A stretch of 64,000 nucleotides of DNA from Methanofollis sp. W23 (GTDB taxonomy: Archaea; Halobacteriota; Methanomicrobia; Methanomicrobiales; Methanofollaceae). Shown here one piece after another: positions 7,708-46,449 of the stretch. The position numbers and the translations under genes were made by a program. The stretch is taken from the NCBI RefSeq assembly GCF_017875325.1, contig NZ_JAGGMN010000001.1, positions 620,001 through 684,000 of the forward strand, read 5' to 3'. The notes beneath the pieces were generated by a model, which was given only the letters and a program-made list of their open reading frames with translations, made no database searches and was not told where the DNA came from. Numbering within the stretch: position 1 is the stretch's first letter; each line of letters begins with the position of its first letter.

Positions 7708-8997
7708 CTATCGCACAAATCCCTCGCGCCCTGCAAAGGGCAGGCGACCTTCCGCTTCCTCTTCTATCCTGAGCAACTGATTATACTTCTCCACCCGCTC
7801 GCCGCGGGCCGGTGCCCCGGTCTTGAGATGCCCGGTACCGAGGGCGACGCAGAGGTCGGCGATGAACGTATCGACCGTCTCGCCGCTCCGGTGCGAGACC
7901 ATCGCTCCCCAGCCGTTGGCCTGGGCCAGGTCGACGGCCGCGATCGTCTCGGTCACCGTGCCGACCTGGTTTGGTTTGATGAGCACGGCGTTGGCGGCCT
8001 GCTCCCTGATCCCCCTCCTGACCCGCTCCACGTTCGTGACAAAGAGATCGTCGCCCACCAGTTCGAGGCGGTCGCCCAGCGTCCTGGTCAGCAGACGCCA
8101 GCCGTCCCAGTCGTCCTCGGCCAGGCCGTCCTCGATCACGATGAGAGGGTAGGCGGCGGCAAGGTCTGCATAATAGTCCACCATCTCTCCGGAAGAGAGC
8201 GCTCGTCCCTCGGTCTTGAGGCGGTACTCCCCGTCCATGTACAATTCGCTCGACGCCGGGTCGAGGGCCAGCCCGATCTCGGCCCCAGGCCTGAAACCCG
8301 CCGCCTCGATCGCCTCGACGATGAGGTCGAGCGGTTTCTGGTTGGACCTGACCGCCGGGGCAAACCCGCCTTCGTCCCCGACGCCGGTGTGATACCCCTT
8401 CGCCGCGAGGAGTTCCTTGAGAGCGTGATAGGTCTCTGAGCCGTAGCGGAGTGCCTCCCTGAAGTCGGGCGCCCCGTACGGGACGATCATGTACTCCTGA
8501 AAGTCGGCGCCCTGCCAGGCGGCATGCACCCCGCCGTTGAGGATGTTCATCATGGGCACCGGCATCGCCGCTCGCCCTTCGGGGTTTTCGAGGGAACGCC
8601 ACAATGAAAGCCCCGCCGCCGCAGCCGCACTTCTTGCCGCGGCCATCGAGACCGCAAGGATGGTGTTGGCCCCGAGACGGGCCCTCGTCGGGGTGGCGTC
8701 GAGGGCGATGAGGTCGCGGTCGATCTCCTCCTGCGCCGCGGCGTCCTTGCCTCGCAGGTGAGCCGCGATCTCGGTGTTCACCAGGTCGACGGCGTGCAGG
8801 ACACCTTTCCCGCGGTACCTCGACTGGTCCCTGTCTCTTTGTTCGTGGGCCTCGTGGACCCCGGTCGACGCTCCAGAAGGAACGGCGGCGCGGGCACGTG
8901 CCCCGCATGCAAGCCAGATCTCAACCTCGACGGTGGGGTTTCCCCGCGAGTCGAGGATCTCTCTCCCGTGAAGGGAGGTGATGGTGGTGTCAGTCAT
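7708..8997 (-). CDS. eno: Enolase (phosphopyruvate hydratase)
   Basis: This 429-residue enzyme interconverts 2-phosphoglycerate and phosphoenolpyruvate in the cytoplasm. In methanogens this serves gluconeogenesis and glycolysis. Visible signatures are the N-terminal GREILDSRGNPTVEVE, the PSGASTG loop, the VGDEGGFAP block with the catalytic Glu, LIKPNQVGTVTET with the catalytic Lys, and SHRSGET. The ATG at 8997 is chosen over a GTG at 9009 because AAGGAG sits 11 bases upstream. The start lies 8 bp after the stop of the dynamin-like gene, so the two are probably co-transcribed. Confidence 0.97.
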   Translation of the reverse strand: MTDTTITSLHGREILDSRGNPTVEVEIWLACGARARAAVPSGASTGVHEAHEQRDRDQSRYRGKGVLHAVDLVNTEIAAHLRGKDAAAQEEIDRDLIALDATPTRARLGANTILAVSMAAARSAAAAAGLSLWRSLENPEGRAAMPVPMMNILNGGVHAAWQGADFQEYMIVPYGAPDFREALRYGSETYHALKELLAAKGYHTGVGDEGGFAPAVRSNQKPLDLIVEAIEAAGFRPGAEIGLALDPASSELYMDGEYRLKTEGRALSSGEMVDYYADLAAAYPLIVIEDGLAEDDWDGWRLLTRTLGDRLELVGDDLFVTNVERVRRGIREQAANAVLIKPNQVGTVTETIAAVDLAQANGWGAMVSHRSGETVDTFIADLCVALGTGHLKTGAPARGERVEKYNQLLRIEEEAEGRLPFAGREGFVR

Positions 8998-24971: not shown

Positions 24972-25090
24972 GGCCCTGTAGAAATCCTCTTGATCGTTCT
25001 CTTCGACGGGGGGGCTGCCCGTGACGTGAGCATAAGGGAAGGCGGATGACACGCATTCTCCCCACGAGAAGTGAGGGTTTCTACAGAACC
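24972..25090 (+). repeat. Family A element, internally deleted (119 bp)
   Basis: Both terminal repeats are intact (GGCCCTGTAGAAATCCTC and GAGGGTTTCTACAGAACC). The middle of full copies is missing: the left hairpin is cut short and joined to the AAGGCGGATGACACGCATTC segment that precedes the right end. Confidence 0.85.
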
Positions 25091-25112
25091 AGATGATCTA
25101 TCGTTTCTGTAT

Positions 25113-25646
25113 TTATTCGTCCCTGAAGCGGGCGTAGAGCACTTCGTCCATGATCGTTCCGTTCTTTGTGACCGCTCTTTTGTGCACGGCCTCCCGTTGA
25201 AAACCGCACTTTTCAAGGACACGCCCTGATGCATGGTTGTTCTCAAAGATTCCTGCCTGGATTCTGACGACGTCCAGACGCTCGAAGGCGATCGGTACGA
25301 GGGCCTTTACCGCTTCTGTTACAATTCCCCTGCCCTGATAGGGTGTGGCCAGCCAGTACCCGATCTCCGCCGTATTTCTGTACACATCCTCAAGAGGAGT
25401 GACGCCGATTCCACCGGCCGCCTCTTCGTCTACCTCTATTGCGAGCAGAATCGCAGACGACGTGCCTGATGCCATATGTATGAAACGCTCCGCATCGTTC
25501 AGGGAATAGGGAAAAGGAAAGCCGTCCCGCATAGAACCCGCGATATCCGGATTGTTCGCATGGCATGCAAGGGCGGGTGCATCATCGATCTCCCAGGGAC
25601 GAAGAGATGCTGATGGTGTCCTGATACAGAGGGGCGGTTTCATCAT
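25113..25646 (-). CDS. GNAT family N-acetyltransferase (RimJ/RimL type)
   Basis: A 177-residue acetyltransferase. It starts with LRPWEIDDAPALACHANN, has the acetyl-CoA pyrophosphate loop in TPYQGRGIVTEAV (about 117-130) and the FENNHASGRVLEKCGFQ signature. This subfamily acetylates protein N-termini or small amines; the substrate is unknown. It is a single gene between a family A element and a decayed toxin gene. Confidence 0.9.
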   Translation of the reverse strand: MMKPPLCIRTPSASLRPWEIDDAPALACHANNPDIAGSMRDGFPFPYSLNDAERFIHMASGTSSAILLAIEVDEEAAGGIGVTPLEDVYRNTAEIGYWLATPYQGRGIVTEAVKALVPIAFERLDVVRIQAGIFENNHASGRVLEKCGFQREAVHKRAVTKNGTIMDEVLYARFRDE

Positions 25647-25717
25647 ATCATATCTCGTGCACGGGTATTTTCTTTTATCTGTTCATTATTATTCGATCGA
25701 TTGTGCCGATATCTCTC

Positions 25718-25740
25718 GGCCCTGTAGAATTTTTTCTGGA
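25718..25740 (+). repeat. Family A end fragment
   Basis: GGCCCTGTAGAATTTTTTCT matches the terminal repeat only, just upstream of the decayed toxin gene. Confidence 0.4.
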
Positions 25741-25774
25741 TGGGCTACCTGGGGTGTGACGATCTGCAGATCAG

Positions 25775-26077
25775 ATGAAGGCGAAGATCTTTTTTGCCGA
25801 CGAGAAACTCAGGGATATGTTTGCCCCCCTGAAAAATTCGCGTCGCTCTGAGGGTGTTCGATGTCCTGGCAGAGAATGCCTTCTGTGGTGTCCGGATCCA
25901 GAAAAAGCAGGTGCCGAAGGTGTACCGGCAGCGCCATTCTTCGATACAAAATCTCTGGAAGTACAACCTGACCGGTTCCTGGCGCCTGATCTATACTGTG
26001 GTCAGCGACGGCGAAACGATCGTAGTGATATCGAGTGGCTGGACCACACGGGCTATGAGCGGTGGTCTGGGTACTGA
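25775..26077 (+). pseudogene. Decayed RelE/ParE-family toxin, two frameshifts
   Basis: Frame of 25775 gives the toxin-like start MKAKIFFADEKLRDMF. Near 25845 the homology moves to the frame of 25854, with VLAENAFCGVRIQKKQVPK and NLWKYNLTGSWRLIYTV, the core of archaeal RelE-type toxins. Near 26015 it returns to the first frame with IEWLDHTGYERW, the usual C-terminus. Two compensating frameshifts and a shortened first part mark a broken gene, unless the bases are misread. No antitoxin gene is seen next to it. Confidence 0.7.
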
Positions 26078-26167
26078 CTGTTTCACCCCTGGCACTACTG
26101 GATCTGGACCGGGTTTTGATCTGGGATAAGCCTATTTTTCGGGGTGTGATCAACGACCTATTTTTTC

Positions 26168-26396
26168 GGCTCTGTAGAAATCCTCTTGATAGTTCTCTTC
26201 GACGGGGGGTTGCACCCCCCGGACCCCCCGCCACACGATAGGTCGAGGACGGCATCCCGTCTTTCAGGATCTTCTATTCAGCCTTCCCGCCTCAATCTTC
26301 ATCCTGGGGGTCCGGGGGCAGCGCCCCCGGCGGGAGGCTATGAGAAGGCGGATGACACACATTCTCCCCACGATATGTGAGGGTTTCTACAGAGCC
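26168..26396 (+). repeat. Family A MITE-like element, full copy (229 bp)
   Basis: This is the reference copy. The ends GGCTCTGTAGAAATCCTC and GAGGGTTTCTACAGAGCC are inverted repeats. Inside are two hairpins (GGGGGGTTGCACCCCCC and GGGGGCAGCGCCCCC) and the words CACGATAGGTCGAGGACGGC and AAGGCGGATGACACACATTC. T-rich bases (ATTTTTT) flank both sides. No ORF. Confidence 0.88.
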
Positions 26397-26562
26397 ATTT
26401 TTTCCATTGCTGGTGTGGTGGTTCGATGCGAATCACGGAATTCGCGTGATGGGCACTATTATCAGTCAGATAATATTTCTGGTTCACTTTGAGTGAGTGA
26501 GAATGTGGGAAATTAAAAAGGATTATTTACGTGGGCAATAAAATATTGGGTCTGGTGATTTT

Positions 26563-27720
26563 GTGGAAAGAATAAATAATTATGCATATGACTTTGCGAT
26601 ATCGTATGCTGGAGAGGATCTCAACATTGCTAAAGAAATTAAACAGTCAATATCTGAAAAATCAGGACGATATAATGTTTTTCTTGCATCAGATGAACAA
26701 AGTACCCTAGTAGGTACAGATGGGGAAAAATTTTTTGAAGATTTATTTAAAAATTCAAAACAGGTTATTGTTCTTTTTTCAGAAAATTATAAGCGAAAAG
26801 ATTGGCCTCGTTTTGAATTCGATGTTATCCAGAAAAGAGATGAAAAAAACAGATTTATCCCTATAAAATTAGATGAAGTACAGATCTATGGGCTTCCGTC
26901 TACAATATTGTATATGTCTTTCTCAAATAATCCTGAGGAGATTGCTGAAATAGCAATAAATAAATTAATTGAATTTGAAAGGGACAACGGTATCCAAAGG
27001 GAAACTGAACTTCAAAATAATATACGAACCCTAAAGAACTCAAAAGGCGCACTTGACAGGGCTTACCAGTTGGTCATTGACGACCGTGAAAGAACTCCTC
27101 TTGATGATATTGATTTCCCTGACGGAAGTTTTCAGAAGTCCTATTCTATTATTAACATAGAAGATATATCCTACTCAAAAATATCAAGAATAGAGGTCAA
27201 GATCAATATTCCTGCTAATTTGAATAAAGAAACTGTTGAGTATAATATAAAACATTGTAATGCGTCAGTATTTAATGAGCATAAACCGGAAGCTTTGGCA
27301 ATACATGTCTATTCTGATCAAGCTTCAAATTTCCTGGGATTCGATGATAGATACAACGTTGCTAGTTCTAATTTCGCTCTTTATGGTGAATGGGGTAGAG
27401 CAGAAGAGAGCTTTGCATACAATATGCCTGTAAGTAAATTTGGATACACTATAAAATATGAGGACAGTTATTTCAATAATGACATAAAAATCGATTCAGG
27501 CCAGGATATCGCTAAAAAACTTGTATATGAACTGTTTGAGGAAAAGATATCTCAATTTATCCGTGATTCTCAAGATACTAAAACAAGAGATGTACTTAAA
27601 AAATTTGAAAAAATCAAGCCAGTTGAAGTTAAAAAAATGTTGAATAATTTAAAAAAGAAAAAATTGATTAAAAAAGTTGGATCGAAATACAACTGGCATT
27701 GGGAGATCGCAAATAAATAA
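26563..27720 (+). CDS. TIR-domain protein with C-terminal winged-helix-like region
   Basis: A 385-residue protein starting at GTG. Residues 7-140 form a TIR-like domain: YDFAISYAGEDLNIAKEI opens it, and WPRFEFD (81-87) supplies the expected acidic residue. The middle (about 155-330) is unrecognised. The C-terminus (about 335-385), with VEVKKMLNNLKKKKLIKKVG, looks like a winged helix. Many prokaryotic TIR proteins degrade NAD or make signals in antiphage defence; that role is inference. Codon and base use are far more AT-rich than neighbours, a sign of transfer. It is flanked by a family A element and no partner gene is evident. Confidence 0.8.
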   Translation: MERINNYAYDFAISYAGEDLNIAKEIKQSISEKSGRYNVFLASDEQSTLVGTDGEKFFEDLFKNSKQVIVLFSENYKRKDWPRFEFDVIQKRDEKNRFIPIKLDEVQIYGLPSTILYMSFSNNPEEIAEIAINKLIEFERDNGIQRETELQNNIRTLKNSKGALDRAYQLVIDDRERTPLDDIDFPDGSFQKSYSIINIEDISYSKISRIEVKINIPANLNKETVEYNIKHCNASVFNEHKPEALAIHVYSDQASNFLGFDDRYNVASSNFALYGEWGRAEESFAYNMPVSKFGYTIKYEDSYFNNDIKIDSGQDIAKKLVYELFEEKISQFIRDSQDTKTRDVLKKFEKIKPVEVKKMLNNLKKKKLIKKVGSKYNWHWEIANK

Positions 27721-27907
27721 CGATATTCTCCCTCGCATTAAGAGTCCCAATTTTTTCACCGTTTATATGTTGATAAGATATCATTTACTGTGAAGGGGGT
27801 ACATTTTTCGAGATCCTTATAAACCCGGAGGGCCCGTGCGAGGGCCGGGATCCCAATCGTTCCGCTCGGCGCAACCACTCTCCTGATCAACGTCTCCCCC
27901 TACCCCG

Positions 27908-28498
27908 TCATCCCCGCGGCGATACCATTTCCCCCAACTTCTCAAGCGCCCTCTCGACCGGCGTCTCAGGTTCCTGAAACGTCTGCTCGGTGATGGCGGT
28001 GAGGACGACCTTTTCGGCGGGGTCGAACATCCGCCTGGTCCATGAGGCGTCGCCCTGCCAGACACACTCGAACTCGTCGCGCTCGTCCCGCGCCCGCACC
28101 TCCTGCAGGGGCCCGACCGCACGCCTGTCCCCGATCTCGCCGAGGGCCCAGGCCGCAACCCAGACATAGTCGGAGCAGGCGCTTGAGAGGCCACCGACCA
28201 GGGGTTCGACCGCCCGGCGGTCTTTCAGTCTCCCGAGGGCCCAGGTGGAGGCCATGTTCAGGGTGAATACTCCTTCTCCCTGGACCATGGAACTCGTGAA
28301 GTTCAGGGAGGCGATGAGGGGGGGGACGGCACGGGGATCGCCGAGATGGCCGAGGGCCCAGGCGGCCTTCCACCGGACGGCGATCTCGTCGTCGGTGAGT
28401 TTCTCTATCAGGGACGCTCCGGGGTCGGCGCCAAGGTCAGTGAACTCGTCTCTCCAGTCCCAGGACTCCTTCTCAAATACGTGGATCGTGCGGCCCAT
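27908..28498 (-). CDS. HEAT-repeat (PBS lyase type) protein
   Basis: About 196 residues from ATG 28498; an alternative ATG at 28561 would add 21. Repeats of the form VRWKAAWALGHLGDPRAVPP, TWALGRLKDRRAVEPL and AAWALGEIGDRRAVGPL are clear, about 30-40 residues apart. They form an alpha-helical scaffold for protein contacts. It is divergent from the lipase-like gene (87 bp between starts). Partner unknown. Confidence 0.8.
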   Translation of the reverse strand: MGRTIHVFEKESWDWRDEFTDLGADPGASLIEKLTDDEIAVRWKAAWALGHLGDPRAVPPLIASLNFTSSMVQGEGVFTLNMASTWALGRLKDRRAVEPLVGGLSSACSDYVWVAAWALGEIGDRRAVGPLQEVRARDERDEFECVWQGDASWTRRMFDPAEKVVLTAITEQTFQEPETPVERALEKLGEMVSPRG

Positions 28499-28584
28499 AG
28501 CCGGGGAGTATGGGCCATGCCATATATCTCTTCCCAGGGCCAAACCAGAGACATATGCCATTTCTCGGAGGGAGGGATCGTGAG

Positions 28585-29454
28585 GTGCAGCAGGCGAGAA
28601 CTCCGGTGGTCCTGGTCCATGGATGGAAGAGTCATCCTGGGGTCTGGAACCATCTGGTCCGGCGGATCGAGGAGGCCTCGGTCCCGTACCTCGTCTTTGA
28701 CCACAGCACGATGAAAAACGCCTCGATTGCCAGGACCGCCACCGCCCTCCAGGACCGGATCGCACAGATGCGCCAGGAGACCGGGTATGCCGGGCCCGTG
28801 GATATGGTCTGCCACTCGATCGGAGGGTGCATCGCGAGGTACCTTATAGAGGTGATCGACCAGGAGAGGCGCGAGGAGCAGGTCGGGCAGGTTATCTGCC
28901 TTGGCCCCCCGAACAACGGATCTTCCATTGCCGAACTCTTCAACGACCCTGAGCACGGCCCCCACCTTCTCGACCAACTTGCAGGCGTCTTCGTGCCCCG
29001 CACCTACGACCCCGCCGCCGACCTCATGGCCCAGGAGGTGCGGCCTGGCAGCAGGACCATGGCGGCGCTGGCGGGCGCAGGGGTCCGCAAGGACGTCGCC
29101 TACAGACTGGTCCTCACCGCCAACCTCTCTGCCACGCCTGCGTTCTTCCCCTGGTCCGAAGGAAAGACCTGGACCCTCGGCCCTGGCGGAGAGTGGGAGA
29201 CGACCTATGCCGGCGACGGGATCGTCTCGCACCGCGACTCCTACCTCCCTGGCGCCGGTATGGACATCCTCCCGGCGGGTCGGTCAGGACTCGGGGAGCA
29301 CCCTGAGCAGTATTGTCATCTCACCCTGCCGCGGAACCCCGAGGTGATCGCACGGGTGATGGAGTACCTCCTCGACCCGGCGACGCCGTCGCAGCAGGTC
29401 TGCCAGGCCCGCAGAGATCAGGAGGCGCCGGGAAACCAGGATGGAGAGAGATGA
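28585..29454 (+). CDS. Alpha/beta-hydrolase, lipase-like
   Basis: A 289-residue protein. The start GTG at 28585 is chosen for GGAGGGAGGG 7 bases upstream. The oxyanion-hole region is VVLVHGWKSHPGVW, and the nucleophile elbow is VCHSIGG, where the usual first Gly of GxSxG is Cys. A later Asp (YAGDGIVSHRDS) and His (EQYCHLTLP) fit a catalytic triad. It probably hydrolyses esters; substrate unknown. No signal peptide is seen. Confidence 0.85.
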   Translation: MQQARTPVVLVHGWKSHPGVWNHLVRRIEEASVPYLVFDHSTMKNASIARTATALQDRIAQMRQETGYAGPVDMVCHSIGGCIARYLIEVIDQERREEQVGQVICLGPPNNGSSIAELFNDPEHGPHLLDQLAGVFVPRTYDPAADLMAQEVRPGSRTMAALAGAGVRKDVAYRLVLTANLSATPAFFPWSEGKTWTLGPGGEWETTYAGDGIVSHRDSYLPGAGMDILPAGRSGLGEHPEQYCHLTLPRNPEVIARVMEYLLDPATPSQQVCQARRDQEAPGNQDGER

Positions 29455-29502
29455 CGAGGGGAGAAAGATCCCCTCTCCAGCACGGGCGCCGCCGCCCCTA
29501 TC

Positions 29503-31521
29503 CTATGCCCCTGGCGAGATCCTGGCGTCTTCCTGGGGCACCTCAATCCCGAGGCGGCGGTAGAGCGCCCCTGGACCGGGGTCTCGTCCCAGGAAATTTC
29601 TGAGAAGCACCATGCCGTCCTCCATATTGCCCCGTGAGAGGATCTCGTCCCTGAACCTCGTCCCGGTGGCCTGGTCGGTCATCCCAATCTCCTCGAACAC
29701 CTCGACGATATCGAGGGCATACACCTTCGACCAGAGATACCCGTAGTAGCCGGCATCGTAGCCGCCCATGAGATGGCCAAACGACGCCGGTTGATGGGTG
29801 CCGGGGAGCGGGCGGGTGCCGGTCACCTCCTCGTAGGTCAGGGCCCAGACCTCGGTCACGTCGACCGGGGCGGGGTCGGTGTGGAACCGCAGGTCTTCCA
29901 GGGAATTAACAAGCAGACGTGTGTATGCACTCCCCTCCCCGACCGTCCGCGCCGCAATGACGCGGTCGCGCAGGTCTGGCGGGATTTTTCTGGACTGATC
30001 AGTGTAATGCCCTGAGACCGCGTCCAGGACCGCGGGGTCCCATGCCCACTCTTCGAGCGCCTGGGACGGCGTCTCGACGAAATCGAACTCCACATCGAAC
30101 CCTGAGAGCGTGGCATAGGGGGCGGTCGTCAGGAGATGGTGCAGCGCGTGCCCGGTCTCGTGGAAGAGGGTCTCGATCTCGTACATGGTCAGGAGCGCCG
30201 GACGGTCTTTCTCTGGAGCGTGGAAGTTGCCGATGATCGCCACGACCGGCGTCGAATAGACCCCCTCCTCGCTCCTCCCGCCGACCAGTGGCGCCGTACA
30301 GAAATGCCCGTACTTCCCCTCCCGCGGGTAGAGGTCGAGGTACAGGTAGCCGAGCGTCTCCGTCTCGGTCCCGCCCAGGTCTTCTACCGCATACAACCTC
30401 ACCTCAGGGGCCCAGACAGGAGCGTCCTCGACCTCTGAAAACCCGATGCCAAAGAGGGTGCCGACAGTCTTGAAGAGTCCCTGGAGAACGGTCTCGACCG
30501 GGAAAAATTCCCTGACTTTTTCCTCGTCATAGGCATACTCCTCATGCCTCCAGACCTCCTGGAGGTACGCAAGGTCCCAGGGGTCGACCGCCGTCGCCGC
30601 CGGGTCCAGACGCCTCTTGACTACGAGAAGGCCCGTCATCTCGTCGGCATATTTCTTCTTCAGGGGCGCCTGGAGAGCGGTGAGAAAGGCCGTCACCCTG
30701 CCGGTGCGCTCCGCCATCCTGCCCTCGATCTGGTAGTCGGCCCATGTGGCATAGCCCAGTTCCCGTGCGATCTCGTCGCGGAGCACGATCGCCTCTTCGA
30801 GGAGCGGGGTGTTTGCCTCGGCCTGCCGGTTGTGGTACGCCGCGTACATCTTCCTGCGTGTCCCGGCGTCGTGGGCATGGGTCATCACCGCGATATAGTC
30901 GGGATATTTTGTGGTGACCAGACAGGTCCCCGCGGCCGTCTGCGAGCACCCCGCCGTCGTCGCCGCCGGGACGCCGGCAAGGTCGGCGGCGGTGCACTCG
31001 ATCGTGGTGGTGTCGTTGTTGAGGTTGGCCGAGTACCTGGTCTCAAGCCCGCTCAACCTCGTCCTCATCTCCCGCACGTGTGCGAGCCGGTCTTCAGGGA
31101 GTTTCAGGCCGTGCTTCTCGAACTCCCTGAGGGTCACGTCGCGGAGGCGGGCCTCGTCCCGGGTGCGCGGGGCCTGGCCACGGAGGGTGTCGTAGAGGTC
31201 GCGCCTGGTATAGACCTGGGTCATGAAGACCGAGACGGCTTCTTCAGAGGCCATCCCTTCTGCGGCGATTTTTGCGTCCGGGTATACCGAGCCCATCAGC
31301 ATGAAGGGGCAGACTGCATCGGCATACTCTGCAAGGGCATGGTCGAAGGCGAGGAACGTGGTCTCGAAGGTGCGTCTGTCAGGGGGGATCCCGGCGATGG
31401 CGTCGAGCGAGGCGCGTGCGGTCTCTTCGGCGGCCTTGTGCAGTCTGGTGATCTCGCCCTGGAGGTAGCGGGTCTGGATGGGTCTGTCGGCGTCTGCGAT
31501 GAGGTGATGCGAGGTATGCAT
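29503..31521 (-). CDS. M3 family metallopeptidase (oligopeptidase A/thimet type)
   Basis: A 672-residue zinc peptidase, the full length of family M3A. The zinc motif FHETGHALHH gives HExxH at 454-458, and the third ligand Glu is in DFVETPSQALEEW about 25 residues later. It cleaves short peptides in the cytoplasm. Such peptidases are sporadic in archaea. It is convergent with the lipase gene (48 bp apart). Confidence 0.93.
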   Translation of the reverse strand: MHTSHHLIADADRPIQTRYLQGEITRLHKAAEETARASLDAIAGIPPDRRTFETTFLAFDHALAEYADAVCPFMLMGSVYPDAKIAAEGMASEEAVSVFMTQVYTRRDLYDTLRGQAPRTRDEARLRDVTLREFEKHGLKLPEDRLAHVREMRTRLSGLETRYSANLNNDTTTIECTAADLAGVPAATTAGCSQTAAGTCLVTTKYPDYIAVMTHAHDAGTRRKMYAAYHNRQAEANTPLLEEAIVLRDEIARELGYATWADYQIEGRMAERTGRVTAFLTALQAPLKKKYADEMTGLLVVKRRLDPAATAVDPWDLAYLQEVWRHEEYAYDEEKVREFFPVETVLQGLFKTVGTLFGIGFSEVEDAPVWAPEVRLYAVEDLGGTETETLGYLYLDLYPREGKYGHFCTAPLVGGRSEEGVYSTPVVAIIGNFHAPEKDRPALLTMYEIETLFHETGHALHHLLTTAPYATLSGFDVEFDFVETPSQALEEWAWDPAVLDAVSGHYTDQSRKIPPDLRDRVIAARTVGEGSAYTRLLVNSLEDLRFHTDPAPVDVTEVWALTYEEVTGTRPLPGTHQPASFGHLMGGYDAGYYGYLWSKVYALDIVEVFEEIGMTDQATGTRFRDEILSRGNMEDGMVLLRNFLGRDPGPGALYRRLGIEVPQEDARISPGA

Positions 31522-31566
31522 GGAGATCAGAGATTACGTCGCCCTGGAGGGAAAAAAAGGGTCGGG

Positions 31567-31896
31567 TCATTCGTTTCTTGGGACCCAGATGCTCTTGCCG
31601 GTGTAAGTGAGGCCGGGCGTGGCGCGGAGGCGTTCGAGGTCGTAGACCCTGGGGCCATACTGGTAGTCGGCCTCCTGGTACCACCATGCCGGGTATCCGG
31701 GTTCGTCGACCTCCCCGGTCGCCGGGTCGGTGATGAGTCCGTTCGAGTACTTCACGATGAGCCTCGCCGAGAGGGCCTGCCACTCGTCGATGATCGCATC
31801 GCCCCGCCGCACGGTGACGTCGGTGAGGAGACGGCGGGCGCTGGCTTTCCTGTAATCTCGCGCCGGGGGATGGCACCCCTGAAGAACCGCGATCAT
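31567..31896 (-). CDS. Hypothetical protein
   Basis: About 109 residues from ATG 31896. The coding look is good from YRKASARRLLTDVTVR onward and ends with LTYTGKSIWVPRNE. No domain is recognised. It lies 45 bp upstream of the M3 peptidase in the same direction and could be co-transcribed. A family B repeat begins 7 bp before the start, so the present N-terminus may have been altered by insertion. Confidence 0.55.
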   Translation of the reverse strand: MIAVLQGCHPPARDYRKASARRLLTDVTVRRGDAIIDEWQALSARLIVKYSNGLITDPATGEVDEPGYPAWWYQEADYQYGPRVYDLERLRATPGLTYTGKSIWVPRNE

Positions 31897-31902
31897 GTTC
31901 AA

Positions 31903-31945
31903 TCGCGTATGCGTGAACCAGGGTTCATGCCTGATTCTACAGAGT
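31903..31945 (-). repeat. Family B repeat, inverted orientation
   Basis: On the minus strand it reads CTCTGTAGAATCAGGCATGA then ACCCTGGTTCACGCATACGC, the clearest family B copy. It sits exactly between two divergent ORFs. Confidence 0.75.
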
Positions 31946-31963
31946 TGTATTTTTCATCATCAC

Positions 31964-32251
31964 ATGGACCTATCGGGATGGGATCCATTCACAGGGGGAG
32001 GGGAGGGGCTGAAAAATATCTATGGGTGGAGAATTATACAATCTGTTCATCAGAGGGGATCAGAGACGGTATTACTTTTGGACGATGATGACTGGGCGAT
32101 ATTACAGGACCGTCTGGCTCATCCTGAAAAATATGAGACTGAAGAGGGCCGGAAATTTATGGAAAGCGTAATAGATCTTGAGAATTCCGTGGACGTAATG
32201 GCAGATGTTGTTCACATTCCGGCCAGGTTTTTTAAGGAGGGTGAATATTGA
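31964..32251 (+). CDS. Hypothetical small protein
   Basis: About 95 residues. The convincing part is LLLDDDDWAILQDRLAHPEK through DVMADVVHIPARFFKEGEY; an acidic, helical protein of antitoxin size, though no family is recognised. Start is uncertain because a family B repeat abuts it on the left. Confidence 0.4.
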   Translation: MDLSGWDPFTGGGEGLKNIYGWRIIQSVHQRGSETVLLLDDDDWAILQDRLAHPEKYETEEGRKFMESVIDLENSVDVMADVVHIPARFFKEGEY

Positions 32252-32372
32252 GACGGGACGGCGGGGTTGAAATTCCCGCCGTCGTGTAGATCTTTTCACC
32301 CCGTGAGGGGGTGACGCGCAGACGTGCACGTCTCCTCCATCTCGCCTGGGCGCTCTTGAGAGATCTTTTTTC

Positions 32373-32615
32373 GGTTTTGCAGAAATCATCTTGATGGTTC
32401 TCTTCGACGGGGGGTTGGCCACCCCCCGAACCCCCCGCGCGACACGATAGGCGGCGGACTGCAACCCCCCTTTCATGGTTATTTCTCCGCCTTCCGCTAC
32501 AATCTTCATCCTGGGGGTCCGGGGGCGGAACCCCCGGCGTGAGCATGGGAGAAGGCGATGGATTCAGTTCACAGGGGGGTTGAGGTGATGAAAAGAGGAT
32601 GGTTTCTACAGAGCC
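32373..32615 (+). repeat. Family A MITE-like element, full copy (243 bp)
   Basis: Ends are GGTTTTGCAGAAATCATC and GATGGTTTCTACAGAGCC. It has both hairpins (GGGGGGTTGGCCACCCCCC and GGGGGCGGAACCCCC) and the CACGATAGGCGGCGGACTGC core word. Confidence 0.85.
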
Positions 32616-32755
32616 ATTTTTTCTTCTTGTGGTCGATCTGCTCACACCTCGAAAATTGAAAATGGTCTCGCGCTCTTTTTGGTCGCATCTCGATGATCAG
32701 AGATCTTTCTGTCAGGAAAATGCGGAGCATGTTCTGCGCATGAAAAATATTTTGT

Positions 32756-32972
32756 GACCCTGTAGAAACCCTCACTTATCGTAGGGAGAATGCGTGTCAT
32801 CCGCCTTCCCATAGCCTCCCGCCGGGGGCGAGTGCCGCCCGGACCCCTGGGATGAAGATTGAGCCGGGAAGGCACCATCAATGACCATGAAGAGGGATTG
32901 CCGTCCTCTCCTATCCTCGTGGTGCGGGGGTTCGGGGGGTGCACCCCCCCGCCGAAGAGAACGATCAAGAGG
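32756..32972 (-). repeat. Family A element, reversed, missing its last repeat
   Basis: Compared with 26168-26396 it is inverted: GACCCTGTAGAAACCCTCAC starts it and GAACGATCAAGAG ends it. The expected GATTTCTACAGAGCC is replaced by the start of the next element. Confidence 0.75.
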
Positions 32973-33113
32973 GCCCTGTAGAAACCCCCACCAATTCCTG
33001 ATGCGAGCGTGACTCAACCTCCTTCCCCATCATCTCACCGGGGGCGAGTGCCGCCTGGACCTCCAGGACCACGATAGGGCTGGAAGGCAGAATCGATGAC
33101 TTTGATGAGGGGG
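32972..33113 (-). repeat. Family A half-element joined head to tail
   Basis: GGCCCTGTAGAAACCCCCAC starts directly at the broken end of the previous copy. It continues through the GGGGGCGAGTGCCGCC hairpin and CACGATAGGG and stops after GATGACTTTGATGAGGGGG. Confidence 0.7.
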
Positions 33114-33337
33114 TGACTGGCAAAATAAATTTAAAGATGAAAATAGATTGATCAATCAAAGAAACAAGGCTCAGACAATTTTCAGAAGATCTGAGACACC
33201 ACCGGAATCAAAGGGAAGTGGGAGAAAAAAATTCTAAGTTATAAAATTGATATTTTAATATAGAATTATACCGTTGATACAAAAAAGTGTGGAAAACCAC
33301 TCTCGTCAATTTGATTAAATAAAATCCGGAACTTATA

Positions 33338-34465
33338 ATGCAGCATGTAATAAAAAACTATGAAAACAAGTATTTAATGAGCTGTGCCGAACTTGTAAAA
33401 GAAACATGGGATTTTCATTCTAGTTATCAAGATCTAACAGATGTAATGCCTATCTACATTGCTTATGTGCGAGAATGTATAGATTTCAGCTTACACCTTG
33501 AAATCATCGTTGATGAAAACGATAAGGTTTGTGGGTTGCTTTTTGGCAGCATTGAGAATCCATCTTTTGTGAAAAAGATTAAGTGCTTTTCAAATCATTT
33601 GCAGACAAGATTATGGATACGGAAAAATTGGATCAGCGGTAAATTTGGGAACAAATCAGTTGCCTTTCAAAATTTAAAATCACACGCAAAAATTGAACAA
33701 GATGGTGAGAAATGTTCAGACCTTTTTGATGGTGAAGTAAATCTCTTTATTGTCAGCAAGGAACTTCGTGGCAAACGGTTTGGCTACAGGTTAATGAACA
33801 ACTATGTGGAATTTTGCCGCAAAAATCATTTAAAAACCATATTTTTATGGACGGAGCTTGGTTGTAGTTATACCTTTTACGAACGCTATGGGTTTAAAAA
33901 ATATTCTACTTTCCATAACGAAAACTTGACTGATGGAAACAAAACTCAAGATAACGGATTCGTATATTATTACGATATAAACAATCCAGAAGAAAGCGAA
34001 ACAAAGATTACTTTACGCCCAGTTGATGATACAAACAAAAACGCAGTTGTAGCCCTTGAGGTATCAGAAAGCCAAAAGCATATGATTGAGCCTATTACAG
34101 AATGTTTGAATGATGCCCAGATACATGCTTATGATATAGAGTGGGAAACGTCTGCAATTCTTTTAAATAGCAAAGTGATTGGCTTTTCTATGTATGGTGT
34201 GTGGCACGACAGCAAAGGAAAAGATGAAGACGAAGTTTGGCTTGACCGTTTTATGATTGACCAGAAATATCAAGGCAAAGGCTACGGGAAATTGGCATTA
34301 AGAGAATTGATCGCTATGCTTACTGCAAAATACCATTGTGATGACATATACCTTTCTGTATATGAAAATAATCAATCGGCCATTGCTTTGTATAAAAAAA
34401 CAGGTTTTAGATTTAATGGAGAAAAAGATGAAAATGGTGAACATGTTATGGTTCTTGAAATGTAA
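33338..34465 (+). CDS. Tandem GNAT acetyltransferase
   Basis: A 375-residue protein with two GNAT domains. The first (about 1-215) has the CoA loop KELRGKRFGYRLM. The second (about 225-375) has RFMIDQKYQGKGYGKLAL and resembles spermine/spermidine acetyltransferases (BltD type). A polyamine or drug substrate is possible but not shown. Base composition is strongly AT-rich, unlike the GC-rich neighbours, which suggests transfer from a low-GC bacterium. It sits between family A elements. Confidence 0.85.
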   Translation: MQHVIKNYENKYLMSCAELVKETWDFHSSYQDLTDVMPIYIAYVRECIDFSLHLEIIVDENDKVCGLLFGSIENPSFVKKIKCFSNHLQTRLWIRKNWISGKFGNKSVAFQNLKSHAKIEQDGEKCSDLFDGEVNLFIVSKELRGKRFGYRLMNNYVEFCRKNHLKTIFLWTELGCSYTFYERYGFKKYSTFHNENLTDGNKTQDNGFVYYYDINNPEESETKITLRPVDDTNKNAVVALEVSESQKHMIEPITECLNDAQIHAYDIEWETSAILLNSKVIGFSMYGVWHDSKGKDEDEVWLDRFMIDQKYQGKGYGKLALRELIAMLTAKYHCDDIYLSVYENNQSAIALYKKTGFRFNGEKDENGEHVMVLEM

Positions 34466-34988
34466 TGAGTGAAATGAAGAAAGTGTATAGTTTGTGTATG
34501 GGAAGTGGATATACGGCTTTGTAGATCCCCTCACTTCTTCTCGGTGCAAGGGTGATTCAATCACCTTCCCACACAATCACGCCGGGGGCGAGTGCCGCCC
34601 GGGCCCCCGGCCCACCGGGACCACGATAGGGCCGGGAAGGCACCATCAATGACCATGAAGAGGGATTGCCGTCCTCTGCCTATCCTCGTGGGGGGGTCTG
34701 GGGGGCGGCCAAGCCCTCCGCCAGAGAACGATCAAGAGGATTTCTACAGAACCTATTTTGTATTTTCTTCACCGGGAATTTTCGAATCTCTGTGTTCGTG
34801 AACTCAGCGATATCCAGGTCTGTGGTATCGGGGATGAACCGAGTTCACGCATACACGAGTTGACACCCTCGCCGGACCCGCACCAGGATGAGGGAAGAGG
34901 ATCCATACCGCCTGGAATCGATTTCCTGTACCCGTCCTGGACCCCACCTGGACCGTCAGGCCGAAACCTCCATGAAGGGGGAGCGGCC
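34466..34988. other. Intergenic region with a full family A element
   Basis: It holds the reversed family A copy at 34515-34753. After that, GAACCGAGTTCACGCATACA (34836-34855) matches the body of family B. ORFs here are shadows. Confidence 0.6.
34515..34753 (-). repeat. Family A MITE-like element, reversed full copy (239 bp)
   Basis: Ends are GGCTTTGTAGATCCCCTCAC and GAGGATTTCTACAGAACC. The order of internal blocks is reversed relative to 26168-26396: GGGGGCGAGTGCCGCCCGGG first and GGGGGGCGGCCAAGCCC last. Confidence 0.85.
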
Positions 34989-35540
34989 ATGACCCCTCCA
35001 GTACAGGAGATGAATCAGACCATGACCGAGACCGTCCCCTATGAGATCACCGGCACGGCAGGAGCGATCGAGTTCCGGACCTATCCCGCCCTGGTGCTCG
35101 CCACCGTCGAGAGTGCCGGGGATGACCCCGGGTTCAACCTGCTCTTCAGTTATATCTCGGGGAACAACGCCCCCCGGCATACCATCTCGATGACTGCGCC
35201 GGTCATCACCGCCACGAAGATCCCGATGACCGCCCCGGTCGTCTCTGATGCGAGCACGATCTCGTTTGTGATGCCCCCAGGGAAAAACCTCGACGAGGTT
35301 CCCGAACCCCTGGACGACCGGGTGCGGATCGTGCCGGTGCCCGAACGGGAGGTTGCCGTTATCCGGTTCAGGGGAACTGCGTCGCAGGAAGAAGTGGAGG
35401 CGGCAGAGGCGCGGCTGCGGGACGGACTCGAAGAGGCCGGGGTCGAACCGGTGGGAGAGGCGTTTCTGATGCGCTACAACCCGCCCTGGGTGCCGGGGGT
35501 TCTCAGGCGAAACGAGGTGGGGATCGAGATCAGACGCTGA
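34989..35540 (+). CDS. SOUL family heme-binding-like protein
   Basis: A 183-residue protein. The family feature MTAPV occurs twice (ISMTAPVI, PMTAPVV), followed by SFVMP. It opens with EIRTYPALVLATVE-like EFRTYPALVLATVE. SOUL proteins bind heme or tetrapyrroles in some organisms; a direct ligand is not evident here. The ATG at 34989 is chosen for GGGGGAGC upstream. No signal peptide is seen, so it is probably cytoplasmic. Confidence 0.9.
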   Translation: MTPPVQEMNQTMTETVPYEITGTAGAIEFRTYPALVLATVESAGDDPGFNLLFSYISGNNAPRHTISMTAPVITATKIPMTAPVVSDASTISFVMPPGKNLDEVPEPLDDRVRIVPVPEREVAVIRFRGTASQEEVEAAEARLRDGLEEAGVEPVGEAFLMRYNPPWVPGVLRRNEVGIEIRR

Positions 35541-35760
35541 GACCGCCGCCCTTGCCCCTCGCCTGGCCCCTGGCGAAGAAGAATGGGTGGCAGTGAGCGC
35601 CTGAGCGCGGGGGCCCTTGTGCCGATGAGTTCTGGAAAATATGGTGTGCCTGATGAAAACTTGATCCTTATCCTTGCGTTTGATGAACGAACAGAGATCG
35701 AGTCATCGTGCCGCCCCTGCCTATCTTCTGTCCGTGGGGGTCAGGGGCGGCACTCGCCCC

Positions 35761-36579
35761 TCACTCCAGCATCTCGGTCCGCTCGGGCGTCCAGGCCGGG
35801 TCGACGAAACTGAGCACCGTCGAGTTCGTCGCCGCCACATTCCGATACCCCTTCACCTCGTCGGGCGGGACATATGCCGCACTCCCGGCCGCCACCCGCA
35901 CCGCCCCGCCCCCTGCCGGGGTGAAGACCTCGACCTCGCCGTCGAGGACATAGACCACCTCCGACGAGCCGTTGAGCCGGTTGTATCTGATCGAGCCGCC
36001 AGGGAGGAGTTCGACGTAGGCGACGCTGTAGCCGATCGGGAGGCCCGCCTCCTCTGTCAGCACCGGGTTTGCAAGGGTGTAGATCCTCATATCCGCCCCG
36101 AGGTTCCACTCAGCCCCGGCCCTCGGGTCAGGGATGACGACTGGCACGCCGTCGGTCGTCCCCGCGAGGAGTGCGAGGTCGTCGCCCGAGATTTCGTTTT
36201 CCACCGTGAAGGGGGGTTCGATCACGTCGACGTACCGAAGATCGCGCTCCCCGACCGAAGCGATCGACTGGAGCACGCCTTCTGGCAGGAGCACGCTCTC
36301 GCCGGCACGAGCGGTCACGGTCTGGTTGTCGCACCTGATCTCGGCCTCGCCCGCAGTGAGGAAGACGAACTCGGTGCTCCCGGCCATCCGGTGCAGGGGC
36401 GTGGCATTGCCCGGCGGGATGACGACGGTCCCGAGGCTGTAGTTTGCCGGGATCTCAGGGGTCTCTTCTTCGCCGATGAGCCCTGCATATTCTCCGGCCC
36501 CCTCTGCTGACGGCGTCGGGGAGACGCACCCGGCAGAGAGGAGGAAGCAGATGAGGATGAGGAGGACCGTCCTGTGCAT
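35761..36579 (-). CDS. Cupin-domain lipoprotein
   Basis: A 272-residue protein. The N-terminal hydrophobic stretch ends in the lipobox LLSAGC (Cys18), so it is probably lipid-anchored outside the cell. Two cupin barrels follow: the first with PLHRMAGSTEFVFLTAGEAE (about 62-110), the second with YNRLNGSSEVVYVLDGEVE (about 198-250). The metal ligands are only partly present (one His in the first, none obvious in the second), so enzymatic activity is doubtful. Confidence 0.85.
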   Translation of the reverse strand: MHRTVLLILICFLLSAGCVSPTPSAEGAGEYAGLIGEEETPEIPANYSLGTVVIPPGNATPLHRMAGSTEFVFLTAGEAEIRCDNQTVTARAGESVLLPEGVLQSIASVGERDLRYVDVIEPPFTVENEISGDDLALLAGTTDGVPVVIPDPRAGAEWNLGADMRIYTLANPVLTEEAGLPIGYSVAYVELLPGGSIRYNRLNGSSEVVYVLDGEVEVFTPAGGGAVRVAAGSAAYVPPDEVKGYRNVAATNSTVLSFVDPAWTPERTEMLE

Positions 36580-36769
36580 GGGGGGAGGGAGTCTGTCAGG
36601 GGAGATAAATGATCCGCCCGAGAGGGGTAGGGGTTACAGGTCGGTGGAAAAATGTGAGAGCCATCACCTGGACTGAACTCATCTCTGACGTATTTCCCAG
36701 GCATGCCCATTATTCATAATACTACGTTCTGGGTGTCAGGGTGAAGGCGACAATATTCTCTGTATTTTC

Positions 36770-37007
36770 GGCCTTGTAGAATTTCTCTAGATAGCCATCT
36801 CGGCGGGGGGCACTCGCCCCTCGCCCCCGGCGCGACACGATAGGGGGTGGACTGCAACCTCTCTTTAAGGATCGTTTCTCCGCCTTCCGCCCCAATCTTC
36901 ATTCTGGGGGACGATCTATGATCTTCGAGGAACCCCCGGCACGATGTAGAGGGGGACAGGTGATCAGAAGAGAATTCTCACCGCGCCATGAGGGTCTCTA
37001 CAGCGTC
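36770..37007 (+). repeat. Family A MITE-like element, full copy (238 bp)
   Basis: Ends are GGCCTTGTAGAATTTCTC and GAGGGTCTCTACAGCGTC. The left hairpin and CACGATAGGGGGTGGACTGC are present; the right half is diverged. Confidence 0.8.
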
Positions 37008-37015
37008 ATTCTTTT

Positions 37016-37250
37016 GGTTCTGTAGAAATCCTCTTGATGAATCTCTCTGTCAGGGGGCTTGGCCGCCCCCCGAACCCCCCCGCCCCACGATAGGTCGAGG
37101 ACGGCAACACTCTCTTGATGGTCATCAATTCTGCCTTCCCGACCCTATCGTGGTTCCGGGGGGTCCGGGGGCAGCGCCCCCTGCCAAAGGGGTAGGAAGG
37201 CGGGAGACACACGTCTCCCCCACACAAGAGGTGAGGATTTCTACAGCGCC
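37016..37250 (+). repeat. Family A MITE-like element, full copy (235 bp)
   Basis: Ends are GGTTCTGTAGAAATCCTC and GAGGATTTCTACAGCGCC. The core words CACGATAGGTCGAGGACGGC and GCCTTCCCGACCCTATCGTG are inverted with respect to each other, so the element is near-palindromic. It starts 8 bp after the previous copy. Confidence 0.88.
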
Positions 37251-44570: not shown

Positions 44571-44991
44571 GCAGGACGTTGCCACTTTGAAATCTGCTTC
44601 AGTATAATCGTTGAGACTGGAGGAGAAGAGGCCCTCGACGGCCTCCTGAAGATCAGATGTCTGGACCAGATCTCTGTCGGTCTGAACCCCTGATCCAGGG
44701 GTGCCAGAAAGAGAGGGACGGTAAAACCCTTCATTTCTTCTGATACACATTCGCCCCGTCGTGATCGACGTGCCTGACTTCGACGCTCCACCCTCCTTCG
44801 CGAGGGCGATCCTTCTGGTCTCATATCGATGGTTTTCATCGTCGGCAACTCCGGTACACCGATGGACCTGCCAGAACCGCACCAGAGACCGCCCCGTCGC
44901 CATCCACCGGCCGAGTCCAGATATGGTCCGTTTTCTTAAAAAACTTAAATATAAAATCATATATCAAATAAAACGCAACCCCTCCCAAAAA
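44571..44991. other. Intergenic region upstream of DUF2779 gene
   Basis: No supported gene. A strongly degraded family A end (GGTAAAACCCTTCATTTC, about 44722-44740) may be present. An AT-rich promoter patch occupies 44938-44970. Confidence 0.5.
44944..44955 (+). promoter_or_regulatory. Putative TATA box for the DUF2779 gene
   Basis: CTTAAATATAAAATC lies about 37-48 bp before the chosen ATG at 44992 in an AT-rich patch. Confidence 0.55.
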
Positions 44992-46449
44992 ATGGAGCGA
45001 GGAGGGATTTATGTGCCGCACATATCAAAAGCCATCTTTCTCAACACGATCTTCTGTCAGAAATTAGGGTGGATGCAGGCCAATCGGACAGAGGCAGAAG
45101 AGGTCTCCGCTGGAGATCAATTCAGGATACATCAGGGATTGGAAATCGGTGAAGCCGCCAGAAAACTCTTTCCAGAGGGCATCTATATCGAAGAAAAAAA
45201 TCTTCAGGCCGCTGCACAGAGAACGCAAGAACTGATCCGTGACACTCATACCTCTGTCCTCTTTGAAGCAACATTTCTGGTTGACGGCTATGCAACAAAA
45301 GCCGATATCTTGCAGAGAGAGGGCGACCAGTGGAAATTGATCGAGGTGAAATCAAACACCAACTTCAAAGAGCAGCATATGTACGACATGGCATACACAG
45401 CCGCGGTCCTCACTCTCTGCGGGCTGGACATTTCAACAATCTCGATTCTGCTCGTATCAAAAGACTTCCGGCTGGGAATGGACGTCTCCGCCCTCTTCAT
45501 CGAGGGCGAGTGTACAGGCGCAGTGGTCCCCTGGGTCGGAGAGTTCAGAGAACACTTCCCCGAGGTGAAAGAGATCCTGCAAACCCCCCGCCCTCCATCC
45601 CTGCCTCTCTCATTCAAATGTAAAAAGTGCCCGATGTTCACCGAATGTCATGGAAAAGATATTGAGAACCATATCTTTACCATCCCTCGCCTGAGTGAAA
45701 AGAAGTTCACCGCGTTGGTCGGCAAGGACATTGTCCGGATTGAGGATATACCAGAGGATTTTGCACTCACCAAAAATCAGAGAAAGCATGTAGAGTGTGT
45801 ACAATGTGGTGAACCGGTCATAGACCCCGGCCTCCGGAGCGCACTCGATGAGATCGTATGGCCTGTCCACTATCTCGACTTTGAGACGACGACGACCGCG
45901 ATCCCTCTCTACCCGAATCTCGCTCCGTACTGCCATCTCCCGATCCAGTATTCCATCCATACCTGCCCTGAATGTGGGAAAATAGACCGGCATTCCGAGT
46001 ATCTCGCAGACCCCACATGTGATTGTCGCCGTCGTCTTGCAGAACGCTTAATCGAAGATCTGGATGACGAAGGATCGATCCTGGTCTACACCTCTTTTGA
46101 AAGGACAACAATCAAAGGACTGATACAGGAGTTTCCTGATCTGGAAGGGCAGTTACAGGATATCATCACCCGGTTGGTGGATCTTGAAAAGATTGTACGG
46201 TCGGTGAACCACCCCCTATTTAAGGGACGAACCTCGATCAAGGTCGCCCTCCCGGCACTGGTGCCTGGGATGTCCTATGACGGTCTTGCCATTGCCGACG
46301 GAGAGACTGCAATGGCGACCTTTGCATTGATGGCAAAGGGGGTTTTTGATCCGGCAGAGACTGAGAAGAAGAGACAGGAGCTGCTTGAGTATTGTACGCA
46401 GGATACGCTCGCCATGGTCTGGCTTCATGATACACTTGCACAGTTGTAA
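44992..46449 (+). CDS. DUF2779 protein: Cas4-like nuclease fused to DEDD exonuclease-like domain
   Basis: A 485-residue protein. The N-terminal half is RecB/Cas4-like: GYATKADILQ gives Asp105, WKLIEVKS gives Glu118 and Lys120 (PD-(D/E)xK), with Cys22 and CKKCPMFTEC (Cys210, 213, 219) as a possible iron-sulfur or zinc site. The C-terminal half is the DUF2779 region: HYLDFETTTTAIPLYPNLAP (DxE), YTSFERTTIKGL, and LLEYCTQDTLAM for the last Asp, resembling DEDD exonucleases. The ATG at 44992 is chosen from the TATA position and family start ISKAIFL. Role unknown; a DNA repair or defence role is inferred. Confidence 0.85.
   Translation: MERGGIYVPHISKAIFLNTIFCQKLGWMQANRTEAEEVSAGDQFRIHQGLEIGEAARKLFPEGIYIEEKNLQAAAQRTQELIRDTHTSVLFEATFLVDGYATKADILQREGDQWKLIEVKSNTNFKEQHMYDMAYTAAVLTLCGLDISTISILLVSKDFRLGMDVSALFIEGECTGAVVPWVGEFREHFPEVKEILQTPRPPSLPLSFKCKKCPMFTECHGKDIENHIFTIPRLSEKKFTALVGKDIVRIEDIPEDFALTKNQRKHVECVQCGEPVIDPGLRSALDEIVWPVHYLDFETTTTAIPLYPNLAPYCHLPIQYSIHTCPECGKIDRHSEYLADPTCDCRRRLAERLIEDLDDEGSILVYTSFERTTIKGLIQEFPDLEGQLQDIITRLVDLEKIVRSVNHPLFKGRTSIKVALPALVPGMSYDGLAIADGETAMATFALMAKGVFDPAETEKKRQELLEYCTQDTLAMVWLHDTLAQL

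Follow-up and report, generated by a model that had tools for sequence, protein, structure and literature searches.

The window, that is, the whole 64,000-nucleotide stretch of DNA that was analysed, contains a rare, horizontally acquired and mobile gene without a fixed partner, which encodes a TIR effector with an undescribed combination of sensor domains; TIR NADases as a kind are already known. The preferred explanation, with the chances standing about even, is a one-gene, horizontally moving TIR NADase that would serve as both effector and sensor in abortive infection, in the manner of the SpbK protein of Bacillus subtilis. The gene and its immediate surroundings comprise the following features.

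25775..26129, forward strand: broken open reading frame (ORF) of the 110-aa type, from a toxin-antitoxin-like pair, split over two frames
26168..26396, no strand: MITE with 18-nt terminal inverted repeats that are 94% complementary
26399..26486, no strand: upstream stretch in common with the congener G015 (86%), where it directly precedes a zinc-ribbon-like gene
26563..27720, forward strand: TIR / DUF4875-like / winged-helix gene, 385 aa, GTG start, placed by the ORF list and the starts of relatives
26563..26982, forward strand: TIR domain, aa 1-140, from the TIR_2 match, the AbTir alignment and the 7uwg superposition
26803-26805, forward strand: Trp81 of the NADase-type pair
26815-26817, forward strand: Glu85 of the NADase-type pair
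26983..27129, forward strand: linker, aa 141-189, with two helices predicted at low confidence (pLDDT 49-77 in those blocks)
27130..27477, forward strand: putative DUF4875-like domain, approximately aa 190-305, from a profile-profile link, a separate model and the 4lg3 fold match
27514..27717, forward strand: winged helix, aa 318-385, from the tail of phrog_12156, the model, fold matches and charge
27908..28765, reverse strand: flanking chromosomal ORF, HEAT-repeat-like by eye, start tentative; homology to congeners resumes at 27927/27928

The preliminary description had announced the ORF at 26563-27720, and this proves exact in its coordinates, its strand (forward) and its length (385 aa), with both of the motifs named there in place (FAISYAGED at aa 11-19 and WPRFEFD at aa 81-87). 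A GGTGAT segment resides at 26554-26559, 3 nt ahead of the GTG start, and the start falls at the same alignment position in the full-length relatives. The gene is under purifying selection in all three domains, and the pairwise dN/dS values of 0.22 (window and G051), 0.15 (window and G066) and 0.14 (G051 and G066) argue against a chance ORF; in each of these pairs dN is higher in the winged helix than in the other two domains. Base composition is unlike that of the surroundings, as had been claimed, with a GC fraction of 0.319 in the gene versus 0.594 in the remaining window and a third-position GC of 0.26. Scans for promoters and terminators gave no signal above chance level.

The N-terminal part of the protein matches the Pfam family TIR_2 over aa 11-126 (E 4.5e-15; 56.7 bits, cut-off 28), and aa 5-136 of a poor full-length model superpose on AbTir (7uwg; Z 9.6, rmsd 2.6, 107 aligned), so that the TIR fold, on which the preliminary description had hung its reading, is recovered. 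The first full-length AlphaFold model, built from three sequences, was poor, with a mean pLDDT of 51.8. In a PDB sequence comparison, the AbTir block DWTNYELD lines up with Trp81 and Glu85, two residues that are invariant in six of six relatives, in keeping with the claim of an effector-type TIR domain with its acidic residue. AbTir, a stand-alone prokaryotic TIR NADase, thus has the fold and the Trp/Glu pair in common with the window protein, but the resemblance is confined to the TIR region. In SARM1, according to excerpts of the source, W71 and E75 bind ligand and E75 is required for NADase activity (PMC7075850); on a reading of the motif, Trp81 and Glu85 would correspond to these two residues. 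The same excerpts describe E75 as common too in TIR domains without reported activity, and therefore Glu85 is no proof of catalysis (PMC7075850). Judged from its sequence, the TIR domain is probably NAD-destroying. NAD+ cleavage by TcpA and TcpO, two TIR proteins of archaea, is stated in the excerpted text (PMC10937652); the two are likened to the window protein here by description rather than by sequence.

Downstream of the TIR domain is what had been called an unrecognized 170-residue middle. The linker part has its model helices at H9-18 and H23-33, and the remainder, at approximately aa 190-305, is probably a divergent DUF4875-like domain. The middle part has no direct Pfam match, even at E <= 10. 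A search of 392 genomes of the phylum with aa 141-385 recovered the relatives of the protein together with one weak match, L013 (18% identity, E 4.8e-4), a lipoprotein-like ORF that itself matches PF16175 (DUF4875) below the cut-off (E 7.5e-4) and has no match among plasmids and phages. Another archaeal protein, L017, exceeds the PF16175 cut-off by a narrow margin (1 of 294 genomes). Comparison by hhalign of four TIR-protein middles with L013 and L017 gives a probability of 88.6 and an E of 2.6e-6, the latter being the value for one single comparison between shallow profiles. The combined middle-domain profile matches 10 of the 392 genomes, with three TIR proteins, six other proteins (L013/L058, L017/L059, L060, L061, L062 and L063), none of them fused to TIR, and a weak match in G160 (E 8.5e-4, 3 stops). 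Five residues are invariant in ten aligned sequences (Y54, I56, R69, G135 and W137, in the numbering of the aligned window piece). All six non-TIR relatives contain, by eye, an N-terminal hydrophobic stretch or a lipobox-like cysteine, which suggests membrane-anchored or lipoprotein-like proteins of archaea.

Modelled alone from 10 sequences, the middle domain reaches a pLDDT of 79.7 and a pTM of 0.74, with core blocks mostly at 87-97 and a beta-beta-alpha-beta-beta-alpha-beta fold order; a 35-row alignment that misplaced middle-domain rows onto TIR was left out of structure prediction. The top PDB match of this model in both programs is 4lg3 (E 0.028 / Z 6.7, rmsd 4.8, 117 aligned), with a Z below 8, a level that chance may reach. 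The title of that entry reads "DUF487 family protein", which we take to mean DUF4875. Matches below it (sex pheromone cAM373 precursors and the MamM C-terminal domain) do not stand out from background. Because the middle-domain sequence profiles find no relative in the PDB, the link to 4lg3 comes from fold comparison alone. It is since the sequence evidence joins this fold match that the segment is taken as a divergent DUF4875-like domain. The likeness to PF16175 and 4lg3 thus consists of the profile-profile link and the top fold match, whereas the window middle lacks a direct Pfam match and the DUF4875-like relatives elsewhere lack a TIR domain. No paper on DUF4875 was found in the open-access library searched. 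Among predicted viral structures (BFVD), the middle has its best fold matches in A0A6M5CED9 (E 9e-4) and in a lipoprotein of a myovirus (E 5.9e-3). Two BFVD entries, A0A6M5CED9 and A0A8S5V1L5, one of them named lipoprotein, have a fold like that of the middle domain and are possible viral DUF4875-like counterparts.

The wHTH-like C-terminal end of the preliminary description is upheld by the model and by fold matches. In the full-length model, aa 312-385 have a pLDDT of ~75-90 over most of their length, and the modelled segment matches wHTH repressors at Z ~9-11, with MecI/BlaI and MarR among the close shapes. In addition, the last 58 positions of phrog_12156 ("DNA helicase") match aa 326-384 (E 8.9e-6). 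The net charge of aa 312-385 is +10 in the window protein and +4 and +7 in two relatives, and the TIR and middle parts of the same three proteins are acidic. Winged helices are common in non-regulatory proteins too. Genome matches to this one sit in the tails of proteins with AlbA_2 and HATPase_c_4 or with HATPase_c_4 (L012 and L014; L051 by eye). The tail module is thus common to the window protein and the AlbA_2 (Schlafen-like) / RecG-C-terminal proteins, but the window protein has neither an AlbA_2 nor a HATPase_c_4 domain in Pfam.

A nucleic-acid sensor of the Z-alpha type was considered as well. The recognition helix of Z-alpha domains contacts Z-DNA through an Asn and a Tyr. Z-alpha chains occur among the many wHTH fold matches of the window winged helix, and the winged helix of L098:1264-2427 has a sub-threshold Pfam Z-alpha match (E 0.0067). 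By eye, the contact Asn is present in one of four full-length relatives and the Tyr in none of the four, and the assignment was rejected.

Of 232 genomes from the order, which is taken to be Methanomicrobiales-like and methanogenic, four have the full architecture, and every carrier of the middle domain there is full length; among 12 genomes of the genus, two carry the gene. The full-length relatives are 66% (G051), 62% (G066) and 56% (G567) identical to the window protein. Outside the order, a Methanophagales MAG (QENJ01000230, G372; 52%) contains the TIR and middle parts and ends before the winged helix, and an Atribacteria MAG (contig DPXH01000005; 55%) contains the TIR domain and linker, with a stop near the contig end. 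Among 50 genomes of the phylum of the Atribacteria MAG, its own included, the TIR part occurs in that one only, and two others match the winged helix only. TIR_2 matches as such occur in 39 of 120 genomes of the order. Among short peptide patterns, one built from an alignment located two genome loci, and those made from the single sequence had no match in either genome or viral contigs. The viral searches yielded neither a relative nor a trigger, tblastn against phages returning nothing and the alignment-based patterns (three alignments) matching no locus in viral contigs. Against plasmids, tblastn recovered TIR parts only, in 6 records, and the middle and tail gave nothing at E <= 1. No paper on TIR in Methanoculleus was found in the open-access library searched, and a search of that library for archaeal TIR proteins with a winged helix and NADase activity brought up a plant review. 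Elsewhere in the genus, G027:C1:198940-216265 contains five TIR_2 matches within ~17 kb and is likely a defence island.

The window copy occupies what had been described as an accessory locus, and its foreign composition, its MITE and the presence of a different gene in the same slot of congeners agree with this. The window neighbours are a GNAT gene, the broken ORF, the MITE, the HEAT-like ORF (by eye), a lipase-type hydrolase and an M3 peptidase. The MITE, likewise part of the preliminary description, has inverted ends, is bounded by an 8-nt target duplication, ATTTTTTC, at 26160-26167 and 26397-26404, and has at least 30 further copies in the genome among the matches listed. More copies, full or partial, are scattered over window positions 24972-37250 (for example at 32378-32557, 32760-32972, 34603-34753 and 37016-37250). 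A flanking "decayed toxin" had also been claimed. The decay is evident, with pieces at 25775-26077 and 25854-26129 and intact 110-aa relatives in G027, G051 and G021, where they follow a 90-aa ORF (89-aa in G027). The name of toxin is plausible, but Pfam names no toxin, giving for the tested 110-aa relative only a weak DUF2433 match. The congener G015 also matches the window from 27928 on, with a 226-aa zinc-ribbon-like ORF in place of the TIR gene, and G027 contains an ORF of the same kind at the same place; thus, the TIR gene sits in a slot that is filled otherwise in relatives. Two further genes in the window may be mentioned: an AT-rich gene of 375 aa at 33338-34465 (third-position GC 0.33), with two GNAT stretches and adjoining MITE copies, and a DUF2779 protein at 44761-46449 that includes a stretch of Cas4-like nuclease.

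In the other hosts the gene is found at unrelated sites. In all five archaeal hosts the gene has a GC of 0.28-0.36 within surroundings of higher GC (0.41-0.59); in the Atribacteria MAG it is near its surroundings (0.31, 0.29) and not AT-rich by comparison. In G051 an HNH-type ORF lies ~1.3 kb from the gene, and in G066 the gene is flanked, by eye, by genes of the chemotaxis type and of the sensor-kinase type. In the Methanophagales MAG its neighbours are an integrase and an ORF with a weak likeness to PBECR2, and Fic and AlbA_2 proteins are found on its contig in the Atribacteria MAG. In G567 it is bounded by 726-nt direct repeats (92%; L099:4485-5210 and 8137-8862). Next to it are a protein of 1054 aa, which is of replication type by eye and has no Pfam match, and an ORF whose Hjc match falls just below the cut-off; the repeat-flanked site has the look of a place where an integrated element carries its cargo. 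A second AT-rich pair, a 265-aa membrane-type ORF and a 607-aa ORF, resides beyond one of the repeat copies.

The gene has toxin-antitoxin-like company in the window and at L015, and no neighbour recurs across the window and the five other loci, which is what the preliminary description had supposed in calling the gene apparently alone. In G066 only, a 235-aa multi-spanning membrane-type ORF (L003:787-1494) ends 3 nt before the TIR gene; neither Pfam nor PADLOC names it. In G567 a convergent 196-aa ORF with a hydrophobic stretch lies next to the gene. A conserved membrane partner was dropped as an idea because these two ORFs show no relationship to each other (BLASTP E 3.4) and neither occurs at the remaining loci. 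PADLOC identified no convincing defence gene among ten window ORFs, where a GNAT part and a Cas4-like nuclease scored best, or among seven neighbours at other loci. Loss of the acidic residue or of any tie to defence genes had been named as grounds for doubt; the residue is conserved in 6/6 relatives, but no link to known defence genes was found at any locus.

Among described systems, SpbK of Bacillus subtilis ICEBs1 is, in excerpts of the source, a one-gene TIR NADase directed against phage SPbeta, in which the phage portal docks on a receptor domain, the TIR domains cluster and NAD+ is cleaved to N1-cADPR and ADPR, one TIR protein with one receptor domain being sufficient (PMC12847820). As far as those excerpts go, the window gene resembles it in being a single, partner-free gene of mobile elements that combines a NADase-type TIR with a receptor-type domain, but in SpbK the receptor domain comes first and the TIR is C-terminal, whereas in the window protein the TIR precedes the DUF4875-like domain and winged helix. 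Membership in the SpbK family is ruled out by this N-terminal position, and a PDB sequence search contained no entry named SpbK among its 10 matches at E <= 10. The PADLOC models for ThsB (positions 161-247 of 303, matching aa 3-92, E 5.9e-6) and PDC-S66 (positions 145-238 of 282, matching aa 5-99 only, E 1.7e-8) cover aa 3-99 of the window protein alone, and each model is matched within its second half, as against the N-terminal TIR of the window protein. ThsB needs a ThsA gene beside it. Thoeris membership was rejected on the partial ThsB match and on the failure to recognize a ThsA gene at the window and other loci, and PDC-S66 membership on the lack of a full-length match.

By analogy with SpbK, the TIR domains would be held apart as long as the cell is at rest. 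A trigger, either a viral protein or, at the winged helix, foreign nucleic acid, would be bound by the DUF4875-like domain and the winged helix; the bound protein would cluster, the TIR domains would assemble active sites and cleave NAD+, and the infected cell would stop growing or die ahead of viral spread. Since the Methanophagales form lacks the winged helix, the TIR and DUF4875-like parts may be the core. Conceivably, the protein represents an undescribed, one-gene antiviral system of archaea, in which a DUF4875-like receptor clusters the TIR NADase, the winged helix tethers it to nucleic acid, and the signal is a viral DUF4875-like protein, sensed like-to-like, or foreign DNA; this fuller version is possible, if rather doubtful.

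Other readings retain the TIR domain and change its role. In Thoeris, ThsB makes a messenger that acts on ThsA, and the gene of a signal producer usually adjoins that of its effector. The window protein could likewise generate a cyclic or branched ADP-ribose messenger for an effector encoded elsewhere in the genome, consistent with the ThsB model match and, in the excerpted account, with the production of N1-cADPR besides ADPR by SpbK (PMC12847820), but no effector-type gene was recognized adjoining the gene at the window or the five other loci, and this seems unlikely. The basic winged helix, with its resemblance in shape to MecI/BlaI and MarR repressors, would suit a transcription-linked NAD sensor or regulator that sits on a promoter and whose DNA binding is altered by NAD binding, or slow NAD cleavage, at the TIR domain. 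Such a role is weakened because a natural relative, that of Methanophagales, consists of TIR and middle without a winged helix; with the winged helix also having the highest dN in all three pairs, and with no fixed target operon adjoining the gene, it is less likely still.

The company of the gene raises another possibility, that the TIR domain is toxin cargo by which a selfish element kills cells that lose it or excludes rival elements. The integrase of the Methanophagales MAG, the repeat-flanked site in G567 and the toxin-antitoxin-like neighbours at the window and L015 would all fit, but no antitoxin-like partner travels with the gene, and the window copy is intact with no element recognized around it, which makes such a weapon improbable. 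That the TIR domain is a catalytically silent scaffold, or that the protein answers a stress unrelated to viruses, agrees with the excerpts in which a Glu at this site is no guarantee of activity (PMC7075850); given the invariance of Trp81 and Glu85, and a mobility and rarity unlike those of housekeeping genes, it is very improbable indeed. Overall, the one-gene NADase effector-sensor remains the preferred reading.

Many genomes of this archaeal order encode TIR proteins, but infection-sensing parts are little known in archaea. The pairing of a TIR domain with a domain of unknown function would provide a functional context for DUF4875. If the preferred reading is true, it would add a compact sensor-effector to those of archaea, as well as a lead to the binding partners of DUF4875.
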